From: Candidatus Levilactobacillus faecigallinarum
GTDB taxonomy: Bacteria; Bacillota; Bacilli; Lactobacillales; Lactobacillaceae
Assembly (NCBI GenBank): GCA_019113985.1
Contig: DXGJ01000028.1
Location: 1 to 52,558, forward strand
Direction of reading: 5' to 3'
Length of the DNA: 52,558 nucleotides
Below, piece after piece: positions 326 through 7,131 of the stretch (the first letter of the stretch is position 1; each line of letters begins with the position of its first letter). The notes below the pieces were generated by a model, which did not search any database, was not told the DNA's origin, and saw nothing but the letters and a program-made list of their open reading frames with translations. The translations under genes were made by a program, and so were the position numbers.

Positions 326-1489
326 GTGAATACCATGGCAAGCATCAAAAAATACACCAATAAAGATGGCGACACACGTTACATGTATCAAGCCTATCTG
401 GGTATTAATCCCCAAACCGGCAAGCCTAAAAAGACTTCACGTAGCGGCTTCAAGACAAAAAAAGAAGCCACCCTTGCCGCTTCCAGACTGGAACTGGAAG
501 CCAACAACGGTGACTTAAAACAAGCTAACAATATTCTATTTGAAACGGTCTACCATGAATGGTACGAGACTTACACCAATACCGTTCAGGAAAGCACCAC
601 CGTACGAGTTACGGGGATGTTCGATAGTCATATTCTACCAGCATTCGGTAGGAAACGCATTCGAACCATCACACTTAACAACGTTCAAACGGCCGTTAAT
701 GGCTGGTCTAAGGAAGTTAAGCGCAACTATAAGCGTTGGTATTACTACACCCGGCAAGTCTTCCAGTACGCATTAAAGTTGGGGTATATTGATACCGACC
801 CGGCTTCACTAGTGACTGTCCCCAAACCTGACCCAAATTGGCAGCGTGATAAGAATAAGTTTTGGACTAAACAACAAATGACCCACTTTTTCAGTTATAT
901 TGATCCCGTGGAAGAAGCCGAAAAGTACACACTATTCCGTGTGCTAGCCTACACTGGCATCCGCCGTGGCGAGTGCCTAGCCTTGACGTGGCAAGATGTC
1001 AATTTCAGCCAGTCAACCATGACTATCAATAAAACACTCACACAAGGTACTGGCGGCAAACAGATTATCCAGCCTCCTAAGACCAAGGCCGGTAAGCGTA
1101 CCATCCCCGTTGATGCTAAAACGTTAAGCCATCTCAAACACTGGCGACACGCTCAACAACGGTTGTATCTCATGTTAGGCTATAACACCATTCAGCCGGG
1201 GCAGCTGGTCTTTGCTAACCGTCTTAACGGCTACAAGTCCTTAAACACGCCCGGTAAGTGGCTGCATGGCATCATTGATGATAAGCCAAGCGAGTTCCCA
1301 CGAATTACAATTCATAAGTTCCGGCACACCTTCACTTCTCTTATGTTCGAATCCGGAGCATCCCTGAAAGAAGTACAAGGCCTGCTGGGGGATGCTGACG
1401 CGGCTACCGTCATGAATGTGTACACCCATGTAACAGGAGCCAAACGGAAAGAAGCCAGCGACAATTTTGCCCGTTTTATGTCCGAATAG
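326..1489 (+). CDS. int: tyrosine recombinase / phage-type integrase
   Basis: Site-specific tyrosine recombinase that would integrate and excise a prophage or genomic island. The N-terminal ~60 residues form the basic arm-site DNA-binding domain common in lactobacillus phage integrases, followed by a SAM-like core-binding domain (about 65-165) and a catalytic domain. Visible catalytic elements are the first Arg in TGIRRGE (~212), Lys in KTKAGKRTIPV, HKFRH (~329-333) and the Tyr nucleophile in NVYTHV (~366). The usual LGH before the Tyr is LGD, a variant common in this family. Length 387 is normal. GTG at 326 lies 5 nt after GAAAGG; an ATG at 335 giving MASIKKY is the more usual family start, so either is possible. 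A candidate attachment site lies about 95 bp downstream, suggesting that the element extends leftward out of the window. Confidence 0.95.
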   Translation: MNTMASIKKYTNKDGDTRYMYQAYLGINPQTGKPKKTSRSGFKTKKEATLAASRLELEANNGDLKQANNILFETVYHEWYETYTNTVQESTTVRVTGMFDSHILPAFGRKRIRTITLNNVQTAVNGWSKEVKRNYKRWYYYTRQVFQYALKLGYIDTDPASLVTVPKPDPNWQRDKNKFWTKQQMTHFFSYIDPVEEAEKYTLFRVLAYTGIRRGECLALTWQDVNFSQSTMTINKTLTQGTGGKQIIQPPKTKAGKRTIPVDAKTLSHLKHWRHAQQRLYLMLGYNTIQPGQLVFANRLNGYKSLNTPGKWLHGIIDDKPSEFPRITIHKFRHTFTSLMFESGASLKEVQGLLGDADAATVMNVYTHVTGAKRKEASDNFARFMSE

Positions 1490-2855: not shown

Positions 2856-4382
2856 TTATTCCGTTGTTTTTAGTTGGTCCTTCGCTAACGCCAAAATCTC
2901 GGGCTTTAACCCGATGCGCTCAGCCAACCACATGGCTTCACTGGCCCCGACTTGGTTCAACAGGAGCCGGTATTCCGGTTCCAGCGTTTGCCGGTCGAAG
3001 GCCATCGCGCCGGTCATGAAGTGCGGTTCAGCGACCGCGTAGTCCTTGATGCCGGTGTAGTGGGTGGTGACCACCAACTTGGCCCCCTGGTCGATCAGAT
3101 ACTGGATGATGGCGATGCCCAGGGCCGTCCCCTCTTCCGGGTCGGTCCCGCTGCCGATTTCATCTAGCAAAATCAAAGCGTTGGGCCGCAACTCGTTGGT
3201 AATCCCCACCAACGTGGTCATTTCACCCGAGAAGGTACTCAGTTGGGCAGCCATGTTCTGCTGGTCCCCAATGTCGATGGAAACCTGGTCAAAGACCGCC
3301 AGCTCGGTCCCCGGGTCGGCGGGAATCTCCAGGCCCAGCTTGACCATCATTGAGAACAACGCAATGGTCTTCAAGACCACGGTCTTCCCGCCGGAGTTCG
3401 CCCCGGTGATCATCAGACTCTGGTCGGCCGCCAGGTCCACGTTCAACGGCACCGCGTTTTCACCCAACAACGGGTGACGGCCATTGATGATGTGAATCAC
3501 CTGCCGGTCGTTCAACTTAGGCCGAATCGCATCATGCTCCAGGCCGTATTGTCCGCGGGCAAAAATCTGGTCCAGCTCACTCAACAGCTCAATCTGCTTC
3601 TGCAGGTCGCGCCAGTGGTCCTCGACGTCGCCGGTCATGGTCGCCAGAATCTGGTAAACTTCGCCCTCTTCGGCGTCCAGCGTTGCGGCAAGCTCCAGGC
3701 CAGTCTTGGTGACCGTGCTGGGTTCAAAGAAGACCGTCGAGCCGGTCGCGGATTGGCCCATGACCGTCCCCTTAAACTTATGCTTGTAGGTCGCCTTCAG
3801 CTGAACACAGTAGTGTTGGTCGCGCCGAATTAGCTGTTTGCCCTGCAGTTCGTGGTTATGCTTCGAGATGAACTGACCCAGCTGTTGCTGAATCTGGTGG
3901 GACTGTTTGTCCTTATCCTTGCGCAACTTTGCCAGTTCCGGCGTGGCGTCGTCGCGAATCCCGTTTAAATCCAGCACGTCGTCCAGCCGGTCACGTAGCC
4001 CGTTCAACGGGGGCTGCTTCGCCAACAACGCCATCAGCTGGGGAATGTCCTGCTCGTGTTGCCGCAAAACGATGCCCAGCCGGCGCCAGTTGACCAGTGT
4101 ATCCTGAACCGCCTTGAGTTGTTCGACCGTTAACAGGCGCCCCTGGTCCAGCTTGGTACGGATTACCGTAATCTGGTCCAGGTTATAAAAGGTCAGCAAG
4201 ACGTCCTGGGCCAACAGGTCGTGAGCTTCGTGGGTCAGCGCTAACGCGTTCTTGACCCCGGCCAGGTCGTCCTGGACCGGCGTCTGCCGCAGCTGTTCGG
4301 CGGCGTAATCACTGTGGGTCAGGCCGGCGACCGCGTTTAAAATCGTATCGAGTTGTAAAGTTTCTTGAATCGTTTTATCCAT
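2856..4382 (-). CDS. MutS2-like ABC ATPase lacking KOW and Smr domains
   Basis: 508-aa MutS-superfamily protein. The lever/clamp region covers about residues 1-300, with the MutS2-like block ATGSTVFFEP; the ATPase follows with Walker A TGANSGGKT (~325-333), Walker B LILLDEIGSGTDPEEG (~402-417) and THYTGIKDYA. Full MutS2 is near 780 aa and continues into KOW and Smr domains; this protein stops just after the ATPase, so it is a short paralogue type, not the housekeeping mutS2. No frameshift is visible. Bacillus MutS2 is known to split collided ribosomes; a ribosome-linked job here is inference, supported by the attenuator-like leader upstream. Start ATG 4382 has AAGGAG 5 nt upstream; a longer frame to 4403 has no such site. 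Confidence 0.88.
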   Translation of the reverse strand: MDKTIQETLQLDTILNAVAGLTHSDYAAEQLRQTPVQDDLAGVKNALALTHEAHDLLAQDVLLTFYNLDQITVIRTKLDQGRLLTVEQLKAVQDTLVNWRRLGIVLRQHEQDIPQLMALLAKQPPLNGLRDRLDDVLDLNGIRDDATPELAKLRKDKDKQSHQIQQQLGQFISKHNHELQGKQLIRRDQHYCVQLKATYKHKFKGTVMGQSATGSTVFFEPSTVTKTGLELAATLDAEEGEVYQILATMTGDVEDHWRDLQKQIELLSELDQIFARGQYGLEHDAIRPKLNDRQVIHIINGRHPLLGENAVPLNVDLAADQSLMITGANSGGKTVVLKTIALFSMMVKLGLEIPADPGTELAVFDQVSIDIGDQQNMAAQLSTFSGEMTTLVGITNELRPNALILLDEIGSGTDPEEGTALGIAIIQYLIDQGAKLVVTTHYTGIKDYAVAEPHFMTGAMAFDRQTLEPEYRLLLNQVGASEAMWLAERIGLKPEILALAKDQLKTTE

Positions 4383-4455
4383 GTGTTCTCCTTGGTAAGT
4401 CAAGACAATGGAGAACTGGTCCGTCCATTGTCTCGTCCTAATGCTTTCGGGACGG
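4383..4455 (-). promoter_or_regulatory. candidate ermC-type translational attenuator
   Basis: Four segments in the leader RNA can pair in two exclusive ways. Segment 1, CCGUCC inside the leader ORF (4450-4455), complements GGACGG (4421-4426). The arm containing it, GACAAUGGA (4424-4432), alternatively pairs perfectly with UCCAUUGUC (4404-4412). GUUCUCC (4410-4416), which overlaps that arm, complements GGAGAAC (4385-4391), which holds the Shine-Dalgarno AAGGAG; with a one-base bulge, UUG/CAA extends this helix. A ribosome stalled on the leader ORF would mask segment 1, favour the middle helix and free the ribosome binding site. There is no T-run, so translation rather than transcription would be controlled. 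Confidence 0.65.
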
Positions 4456-4479
4456 CGTCAGACAGATTACCGCACTCAT
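4438..4479 (-). CDS. 13-codon leader peptide upstream of the MutS2-like gene
   Basis: ATG at 4479 opens a 13-codon ORF, MSAVICLTPSRKH, ending in TAG at 4438-4440. A near-perfect Shine-Dalgarno GAGGAG (4488-4493) sits 8 nt upstream. A promoter lies just beyond it, so the ORF is the first thing translated on the message. It ends 55 bp before the MutS2-like start codon. Codons 9-10 contain the CCGUCC segment of the candidate attenuator. The size, position and pairing match leader peptides of drug-inducible resistance genes; the inducing signal is unknown. Confidence 0.65.
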   Translation of the reverse strand: MSAVICLTPSRKH

Positions 4480-4513
4480 TAACGTCACTCCTCGTCTAAA
4501 ATCGAATACTCCC

Positions 4514-4542
4514 AGAATAGCATGTTCGGCGGATGGGTTCAA
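4514..4542 (-). promoter_or_regulatory. promoter of the leader ORF and MutS2-like gene
   Basis: TTGAAC (4537-4542) and TATTCT (4514-4519) are separated by exactly 17 nt. Transcription would start near 4507, giving a leader of about 125 nt before the MutS2-like start codon. Confidence 0.6.
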
Positions 4543-4552
4543 ACGCCAGGCA

Positions 4553-4587
4553 CCTAAAAAAGGCCGCCGCGATTACCCGCAACGACC
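4553..4587 (-). terminator. terminator of the amino-acid permease gene
   Basis: On the minus strand GGTCGTTGCG pairs over 10 bp (three G-T wobbles) with CGCGGCGGCC around loop GGTAAT, then six T. It isolates the permease from the downstream leader promoter. Confidence 0.75.
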
Positions 4588-6036: not shown

Positions 6037-6873
6037 CTAATCCGCCAAATCTGCTTCGGTCAGCGGCTGGTCACCGTCATAAAGTTGGCCCTTCACCGCC
6101 CGTTTCTTTTGGATCACCTGTCCGTCGGCCGCCAGGGTCAGGGCAAAAACGCCACCATCAACGGCGCCGGAACGGCTGCCCGAATCGATCAGGTAACGCG
6201 GCACGTCGTCGTGACTGGCCGTCATCTTGATGTACCCGATCCCGTTGGTTTGTAAAAACTGGACCGGGGTATGGCCGGTGACGATGACCTTGCCCAAGTC
6301 GTTGCGGTGCCAGCCCTCCGCGTGATGGTCGTCGTCCTTGAAGTAGTAGTCGCCCCGAATCCACAAGAGGTCATCGCGTTCCTGTTGTGCCAGCGTGTTA
6401 TGCCAGTTCAGCCCGGCGTGGACCGCCAGAATCGCGTCATTCTCCCAGGTGATGGGTCGCTGGTTCAAGAAATCCGTGTAGGCCCGGAGCGGCGCGGCGT
6501 TCAGAGCATCGGCCACCTGAAAAAGGCCGTCCCCGGTAATCCCCAGTCGCGCCCAGGTGTGCTCCCCACCGTTTAACTTCCAGGTCTCATAGGCATCCCG
6601 GTCACGCCGCGCAGTCGCTATCCAGAAGTCGTCGTGGTTGCCCAGCAAGGCCTGGTCCCCGTGATGGGCGACCCGGTCCATCAGGATGTCCAGCACCGCC
6701 AACGGGTCGACCACCATGGGTTCGGTATGGTCGCTGAAGTGCCGGGTGGTCAACCCATCAATGTAGTCTCCCAGAAAAACGATGTGACTGTCCAAAATTA
6801 CCGGGTCGGTCAACAGGGTCCGCAGATCATCGGCCCCCGAATGAATGTCCCCGACAAAGGTTACCTTTTCCAT
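6037..6873 (-). CDS. calcineurin-like metallophosphoesterase (paralogue B)
   Basis: 278-aa cytosolic phosphoesterase, a clear paralogue of the protein at 1824-2699. It has the same ordered metal-binding motifs: GDIHS, GDYID, GNHDD, VHAGLNWH and TGHTPV. The two proteins align end to end, and differ most in the segment after GNHD, which may shape substrate choice. ATG 6873 was chosen because AGGTGG lies 6 nt upstream and the product starts MEKVTFVGDIHS; the longer frame to 6918 adds a lysine/arginine-rich stretch without a ribosome binding site. The biological substrate is unknown. Confidence 0.9.
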   Translation of the reverse strand: MEKVTFVGDIHSGADDLRTLLTDPVILDSHIVFLGDYIDGLTTRHFSDHTEPMVVDPLAVLDILMDRVAHHGDQALLGNHDDFWIATARRDRDAYETWKLNGGEHTWARLGITGDGLFQVADALNAAPLRAYTDFLNQRPITWENDAILAVHAGLNWHNTLAQQERDDLLWIRGDYYFKDDDHHAEGWHRNDLGKVIVTGHTPVQFLQTNGIGYIKMTASHDDVPRYLIDSGSRSGAVDGGVFALTLAADGQVIQKKRAVKGQLYDGDQPLTEADLAD

Positions 6874-7131
6874 CTCTGCCACCTGCTTTCGCTTGATACC
6901 CCGATTATACCCAGTCACCGCCAGCCAGCAAACCGTTTGGGCTCTGATGGTCCCAACTGGGAAAATTAATAACCAAAATGGTTTATTTTTGGGGAGGTTA
7001 ATTACGCACTGTCATCCGCAAATAAGTCTATACTGATGATAAATTACGTGATAAGCGAGATGAGCCAGATGGTCAAAGCACGTTTAGCAGCAATCATGCC
7101 AAAATTCTAATAAATAAAGGATGCGTGATTG

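Follow-up and report, generated by a model that had tools for sequence, protein, structure and literature searches.

An apparent ermC-type translational attenuator before a MutS2-family paralogue of Levilactobacillus and its relatives, a putative stalling-induced ribosome-splitting or rescue factor

In attenuators of the ermC type, translation is controlled by a short leader ORF and by alternative 2:3 and 3:4 helices, with the Shine-Dalgarno (SD) sequence of the gene in segment 4; the leader motif of ermC is of the IFVI type. The general scheme is summarised in the accessible text of PMC6310831. The genes of the ARE-ABCF ATPases, which act on the ribosome (vmlR, cplR, and lsaA), have very short leader ORFs, and their attenuators combine transcription and translation attenuation (PMC9226507 and PMC10201436, in their available parts). 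In Listeria, HflXr is a second copy of a splitting factor under leader-ORF attenuation (rli80), and the other HflX copy plays no part in resistance, according to the portion of PMC6310831 available. Two ATPases are relevant on the protein side: canonical MutS2, which in Bacillus subtilis splits collided ribosomes, and KamC, the reactivase ATPase of lysine 5,6-aminomutase, whose family model is MutS2-like and has 508 positions.

Here we describe a MutS2-like gene in a stretch of 52,558 nt from Candidatus Levilactobacillus faecigallinarum, the whole of which we will term the window. The locus shares with ermC the short leader ORF, the SD in segment 4, the alternative helices, and, by the window scan, a leader-gene interval free of terminator-like sites. 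It differs in that the target is a MutS2-like ATPase, in that the leader begins M-Ser-Val/Ala and has no RLR-type motif, and in that the modelled OFF state needs a ribosome at the end of the leader. The ARE-ABCF leaders are MIN, MK[L/Q], MR[I/M], and MAGN, none of those in the accessible text being M-Ser, and the gene encodes an ABC-F protein. The Listeria system differs in its protein family (HflX), in its 14-codon leader with RLR, and in its use of transcription attenuation (PMC6310831, accessible part). We think it quite probable that the locus represents ermC-type translational attenuation of a MutS2-family paralogue and that the product is a stalling-induced ribosome-splitting or rescue factor. 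The attenuator itself appears to be well supported by computation. The regulation is of a known kind, and the target is new and conserved: no description of a MutS2-type gene under leader control was found in the literature searched, which took in few subscription papers, and a search on MutS2 with uORF gave no match.

The features of the locus, in window positions, are as follows.

4562..4587, minus strand: terminator-like site, 3' of the upstream permease-like gene (terminator scan)
4514..4542, minus strand: extended -10 promoter, TTGAAC-N17-TATTCT with TGn (direct reading)
4488..4493, minus strand: leader SD, GAGGAG (direct reading)
4438..4479, minus strand: leader ORF of 13 codons, MSAVICLTPSRKH and stop (reading and relatives)
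4450..4463, minus strand: segment 1, GUCU..GUCC, within the leader ORF (pairs with segment 2)
4419..4433, minus strand: segment 2, AGACAAUGGACGGAC (reading and pairing counts)
4403..4416, minus strand: segment 3, GUUCUCCAUUGUCU, with the anti-SD in its 5' half (pairing counts)
4385..4391, minus strand: segment 4, GGAGAAC, which carries the SD of the main gene (pairing counts)
4388..4391, minus strand: main SD, GGAG (direct reading)
2856..4382, minus strand: MutS2-like ATPase ORF of 508 aa, with its ATG at 4382 (TIGR01069, PF00488, AlphaFold model, and Foldseek)

A first-pass annotation of this DNA had proposed a good promoter, a 13-codon leader ORF with a ribosome binding site, and pairing segments of which the first lies within the leader and the fourth holds the main SD. 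All of these can be found: the extended -10 promoter at 4542-4514, the leader at 4479-4438 behind GAGGAG, and segments 1 (4463-4450) and 4 (4391-4385), both read directly. TATTCT is preceded by TGC (the TG is counted within the N17 spacer), and a consensus scan asking for 9 of 12 positions did not pick up this promoter. The end of the leader lies 46 nt from the main SD, and its stop lies 55 nt from the main start. From the terminator-like site at 4562..4587, the MutS2-like gene would seem to be transcribed as a separate unit; four such sites were found in the stretch of the window that was scanned, where 2.6 would be expected. Rfam gave no match in the window. A permease-like gene adjoins the MutS2-like gene, and the two are flanked by ORFs with similar phosphoesterase-like starts (1824-2708 and 6037-6918, both on the minus strand), which look like a duplication; Pfam Metallophos is reached by the ORF at 1824-2708 only. 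Close to the contig start is an ORF of 387 aa (326-1489, plus strand), which from its motifs we take to resemble a tyrosine integrase.

The 508-aa protein scores 480 bits against TIGR01069 (mutS2, cut-off 400), over profile positions 2-513 of 790 only, and its sole Pfam match is MutS_V (PF00488). Neither KOW nor SMR domains were found in it by Pfam or by TIGR01069 coverage, and the tails of five longer relatives gave no KOW or SMR matches either. Pfam also found no N-terminal mismatch-recognition or connector domains of MutS. What the family keeps is the core, clamp, and ATPase of canonical MutS2, and the residues of the ATPase motifs, which we take to be Walker A, Walker B, and the signature, are invariant in 39 of 39 proteins. 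The AlphaFold model has a mean pLDDT of 88.3, and its best Foldseek matches are MutS2 structures: 9a5o, 9kce, and 7qv3, the last a collided-disome complex (TMq 0.87 to 7qv3_w). The same genome also encodes a canonical MutS2 (L116, 787 aa), and it has a 911-aa frame of the MutS type. When 60 rows were placed in a tree, a branch with 100/100 support set the 10 canonical MutS2 proteins apart from the family (the join of one long row, L074, to canonical MutS2 is flagged as possibly false). DNA mismatch repair MutS was rejected as an assignment (mutS1, 114.9 against a cut-off of 641.7, and MutS_V only), as was KamC (NCBIfam NF052383, 199.6 against a cut-off of 300). The ABC-F family model did not match the window protein, and a relative (L094) scored 18.3 against a cut-off of 380.

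B. subtilis with a Walker B mutation in MutS2 is sensitive to erythromycin like the deletion, KOW and SMR mutants show only a very modest sensitivity, and SMR and KOW promote the binding of MutS2 to collisions (PMC10897456, in the part available). As it is the ATPase that is critical for surviving erythromycin, a core-only MutS2 could work, and is plausibly functional if it has another way to find ribosomes. As the splitting core of B. subtilis MutS2 is kept and the collision-binding KOW and SMR domains are absent, the product probably acts on stalled ribosomes, and the MutS2 fold together with the leader makes ribosome rescue the function that seems most likely to us. A different role, in which the regulation is as we describe but the target of the protein is DNA (anti-recombination) or a metabolic enzyme that it chaperones in the manner of KamC, is unlikely, if to be taken seriously. 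MutS2 was once thought to suppress homologous recombination (PMC3200294, accessible text), and the KamC model, which also has 508 positions, matches part of the 508-aa protein. However, its score of 199.6 is under the cut-off of 300, and no partner gene is conserved across the families: no neighbour is common to all of them, and the most frequent one is seen at 19 of 80 clustered loci. A role in translation would also be more likely if ribosome arrest controls the gene.

The leader is conserved with the gene. At E <= 1e-100, the MutS2-like gene is present in 29 of 35 Levilactobacillus genomes (the window, seven at 86-88% identity, and 21 at 55-57%); relatives also occur in 76 plasmid records, all at <60% identity. 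Down to about 55% protein identity, the leader was found at 60 of 70 Lactobacillaceae loci (many genomes are counted twice). These 60 reduce to 39 distinct regions, which belong to Levilactobacillus, to Lactiplantibacillus, and to two metagenome genomes that are unplaced. Among the peptides are MSVENCRAMSGTNSCKY, MSAEQLSGNVPSAQVRG, and MSAVNGLTPSQLN. Residue 2 is Ser in 38 of the 39 regions (37 AGT and one TCT) and Arg in the other, and the third residue is either Val (25 regions) or Ala (14). A loosened promoter pattern (TTG or TTTA/G, N15-19, TGnTAnnnT) precedes the leader in all 39 regions, as against 2/39 on the reverse strand and 0.5% in shuffles. By a score of T-richness alone, a T-rich stretch between leader and gene is absent from 33 of these regions and present in six. 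The start element GGAGTGANGTTAATGAGTG, with at most one mismatch tolerated, has a single site in 23 of the 35 genus genomes, each time directly upstream of the MutS2-like gene; it is absent from 12, six of which lack the gene, and the reversed pattern had no match in the genus genomes.

The 10 loci that are leaderless by our rule comprise three of the Furfurilactobacillus type, where a leader (MSVINL) lies farther upstream, and seven from four Levilactobacillus genomes. In these seven (L005/L034, L017/L047, L021/L054, and L027), the extended -10 is kept and the leader ORF is lost. With an assumed transcription start, the cost of opening the SD is 0.1 kcal/mol at L017 and L027, 1.9 at L005, and 4.7 at L021. 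These loci may be constitutive variants, comparable to leader deletions of erm genes.

The leader appears to be far older than the window locus. Relatives outside Levilactobacillus and Lactiplantibacillus have ~35-42% identity, are mostly of 628-655 aa, and carry a leader ~200-560 nt upstream. We scanned 90 family loci, among them some of close species, for SD-preceded ORFs of 5-20 codons, leaving residue 2 free. An ORF of this kind with Ser2 stood before 81 loci, and Ser was residue 2 in 86 of the 159 ORFs that the scan found in all; on the reverse strand, the corresponding figures are 2 of 90 loci and 2 of 14 ORFs. The Ser2 codons across the family are AGT (62), TCG (17), TCT (2), TCC (2), TCA (2), and AGC (1). 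As codons of both the AGY and the TCN type are used and Ser is kept, this argues for selection at the level of the peptide. Two scans that demanded Ser found leaders at 66 and 78 of the 90 loci (82 together), as against 1/90 each on the reverse strand and at most 5 and 8 in block-shuffled sequence; they are no test of Ser2, because Ser was required. Both of them found a leader upstream of none of 10 canonical mutS2 genes. Typical short leaders are VSVAGI, VSAVGSN, MSGVGIN, and MSVVGSK; one locus (L050) has Arg2 (MRVNHC..), and no leader was found at three (L034, L047, and L054). In 295 genomes of the order, an older form of the start element has 26 sites in 25 genomes. All 11 sites that open leaders of 5-7 codons precede this MutS2-like family, two others, which open ORFs of 12 codons (L149) and 21 codons (L155), do not, and the remaining 13 open longer or unreadable frames.

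What could a ribosome on this leader do to the gene? In the window, helix 2:3 (AGACAAUGGA/UCCAUUGUCU, 10 pairs) and helix 3:4 (GUUCUCC/GGAGAAC, 7 pairs) are mutually exclusive because UCC is common to both; the fold with 3:4 hides the main SD, and the fold with 2:3 frees it. Helix 1:2 joins GUCU..GUCC of the leader to GGACGGAC. The minimum-energy fold of the isolated window leader contains 2:3, and its stability is not unusual (z = -1.10). RNAalifold on a MAFFT alignment gave a weak fold that did not recover these helices, for which we blame alignment slips and competing folds, and direct pair counts were used in its place.

In a clade of 27 sequences, 87.0% of the cells of 1:2 + 3:4 are paired (30-46% when slid) and the covariation score of 0.146 is reached by none of 500 shuffles (slid, 0.036-0.077). 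For 2:3, 83.6% of cells are paired (29-59% slid) and the score is 0.153 (4/500 shuffles; up to 0.145 slid). Counts of two-sided changes are weak evidence: 1:2 + 3:4 has seven such pairs (10/500 shuffles; six when slid +1 or +2), and 2:3 has five, below the six obtained when slid -2, +1, or +2. Further pair types in 1:2 + 3:4 are not above shuffles in the 27 sequences (154/500). In the window's own clade of seven sequences, 92.9% (1:2), 97.1% (2:3), and 95.9% (3:4) of cells are paired, with one two-sided pair in 2:3 and none in 1:2 or 3:4. The helices of this clade vary too little for covariation, and 1:2 + 3:4 is above shuffles by no measure. For helix 1:2, pairing in the larger clade stands at 85.8 and 92.5%. 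However, it is the weakest element of the switch. In transcripts ending before segment 3, the expected number of leader-spacer pairs over all regions is 7.4 versus 4.6 in shuffles, a modest excess, and in the window it is 7.8 versus 8.0 in shuffled spacers, which is not above chance. In the four-segment scheme of the first-pass annotation, with 1:2 + 3:4 alternating with 2:3, the pairings 2:3 and 3:4 are supported over the relatives, and 1:2 is the weak point.

For the 39 distinct Lactobacillaceae regions and for dinucleotide-shuffled spacers, we then placed a ribosome on the leader, with its edge set at 16 nt counted from the first nucleotide of the P-site codon, and calculated how much free energy it takes to open the main SD in the RNA downstream of it. 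The mean cost rises from 0.60 kcal/mol with the ribosome at codon 6 to 6.41 at the last sense codon, as against 2.18 and 2.30 kcal/mol with shuffled spacers. The mean difference is 5.80 kcal/mol versus 0.11 +/- 0.22 (the largest of 60 shuffle means is 0.66). The difference is positive in 38 of the 39 regions, the sole exception being L029 (L. suantsaiihabitans), and in 32 of 39 at most one of 60 shuffles does as well; as the sequences are related, these are not 39 independent tests. The switch of the window is modest (3.5 kcal/mol, equalled by 3/60 shuffles), so that for the window taken alone the case rests on anatomy, and it is the relatives that carry the argument. With no ribosome modelled, the main SD is open in several relatives (P up to 0.86). 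The orthologue comparison that had been suggested as a check therefore finds both the leader (60/70 loci) and the pairing segments (switch in 38/39 regions) kept. That a ribosome on the leader controls the SD, as first proposed, agrees with these cost differences; that helix 1:2 imposes the OFF state is doubtful because 1:2 is not above chance in the window and modest overall. The model suggests instead that the OFF state comes chiefly from a ribosome at the end of the leader covering segment 2, and 1:2 may be a co-transcriptional helper.

These results bear on other explanations of the leader. First, constitutive coupling, in which the leader delivers ribosomes by re-initiation, the hairpins tune the efficiency, and nothing is sensed, would suit the short distance from leader stop to main start (only 55 nt) and has been proposed earlier for leader genes (PMC4833913, available text). 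We consider it improbable, because in 38 of the 39 regions the SD is closed when the ribosome stands on the last leader codon, and because re-initiation needs no conservation of Ser2 through two codon families. Second, there is very little probability, in our judgment, that a shortage of Ser, Cys, or Arg is what the leader senses and what the ATPase answers. The leaders contain no run of a single codon. Cys and Arg do occur in many of them, and Ser in nearly all, but four MSAE.. leaders of the Lactiplantibacillus type lack Cys, MSAVNGLTPSQLN and MSVVGIN of Bacillales lack both Cys and Arg, and where the larger clade has Cys and Arg codons, these fall on RNA segment 1. The adjoining permease-like gene of the window might speak for such a role, but in the clustering of 80 loci every neighbour gene is limited to 19 loci or fewer, and none spans all families. 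Finally, a small ORF that is spurious, next to a GC-rich spacer that pairs by chance, would fit the z of -1.10 and the chance-level helix 1:2 of the window, but this is hardly credible given the conservation of the leader and a switch over 39 regions with controls near zero.

Terminator-like hairpins between leader and gene in 23 of 26 older-type loci make transcription attenuation likely there. In the energy model, the terminator forms at every ribosome position at the 23 loci outside the translational clade for which terminator competition was computed, and SD opening in Bacillales and Enterococcaceae shows no consistent ribosome-dependent change. At six loci (L030, L072, L108, L110, L111, and L113), one segment has two possible partners, the end of the leader and a copy that lies directly before the SD. 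Outside the translational clade, such a shared segment 2 was found at <=1/40 shuffles for 14 of 46 loci and not for the other 32. Rfam gave no match at the leaders of 8 related loci.

Some of these loci have further structures. In seven from Peribacillus and Bacillus (L075, L077, L079, L080, L087, L097, and L098), segment 2, CCTACC(TT), can pair with (AA)GGTAGG at about -76 to -69 from the gene start. By eye, this lies in a long GCCCGCAGGAGC..GCGGGC-T6 terminator, which the hairpin scan did not detect, and the pairing is a possible antiterminator. Five loci (L030, L072, L073, L075, and L112) have a large internal hairpin between leader and segment 2 (by eye, UGAAUA..GUUUAUUUGGC-like), which in several Bacilli sits within the leader:segment 2 arch; Rfam gave no match to it in the loci scanned. 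A lysine riboswitch (110.8 bits) is found at L112 (3037-3209, plus strand), upstream of and divergent from the MutS2-like gene.

For the translational clade, we propose that in normal translation the ribosome would traverse the 13-codon leader and end on segment 2. With segment 2 covered, segment 3 would pair with the SD (3:4), and the MutS2-like gene would be silent. Arrest in the first part of the leader would leave segment 2 free, so that 2:3 would form and the SD would be exposed. Because Ser2 is conserved and position 3 is Val or Ala, we suggest that the arrest occurs in the first leader codons and is caused by a peptidyl-transferase-centre inhibitor or an equivalent stress. The product would then act on the stalled ribosomes, by splitting, rescue, or drug protection.

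Which inhibitor might do this? Chloramphenicol arrest is best with a penultimate Ala, less with Ser or Thr, and there is hardly any with Gly in the P or A site, according to the available part of PMC11832420. Leaders with Ser2 and Val or Ala at position 3 would fit arrest at codons 3-5, which is within the modelled range of SD opening. Lincosamide or pleuromutilin arrest near the start codon, as reported for vmlR in the accessible text of PMC9226507, would fit the leader too.

A wider reading, which we hold tentatively and regard as possible rather than probable, is that the MutS2-paralogue family is a Bacilli-wide, inducible second ATPase for ribosome splitting or drug protection. Its expression would be held off by an ancient M-Ser leader, the sensor for early elongation arrest that peptidyl-transferase inhibitors cause. 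A terminator would have been added in Bacillales and Enterococcaceae, and in Levilactobacillus and Lactiplantibacillus the switch would be purely translational and the protein trimmed to its ATPase and clamp core.

Attenuation by a leader peptide marks genes that respond to ribosome arrest (rRNA methylases, ABC-F proteins, and HflXr). A conserved leader that is tied to a family of MutS2 paralogues thus predicts a further factor for ribosome rescue or resistance, whose hosts would be food lactobacilli and many Bacilli. In the quality control of B. subtilis, splitting factors beyond MutS2 are likely (PMC11633108, in the part available), and whether this family is such a splitting factor in its own hosts is directly testable. 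Because it is without KOW and SMR, the family would also show what the ATPase core of MutS2 does alone.
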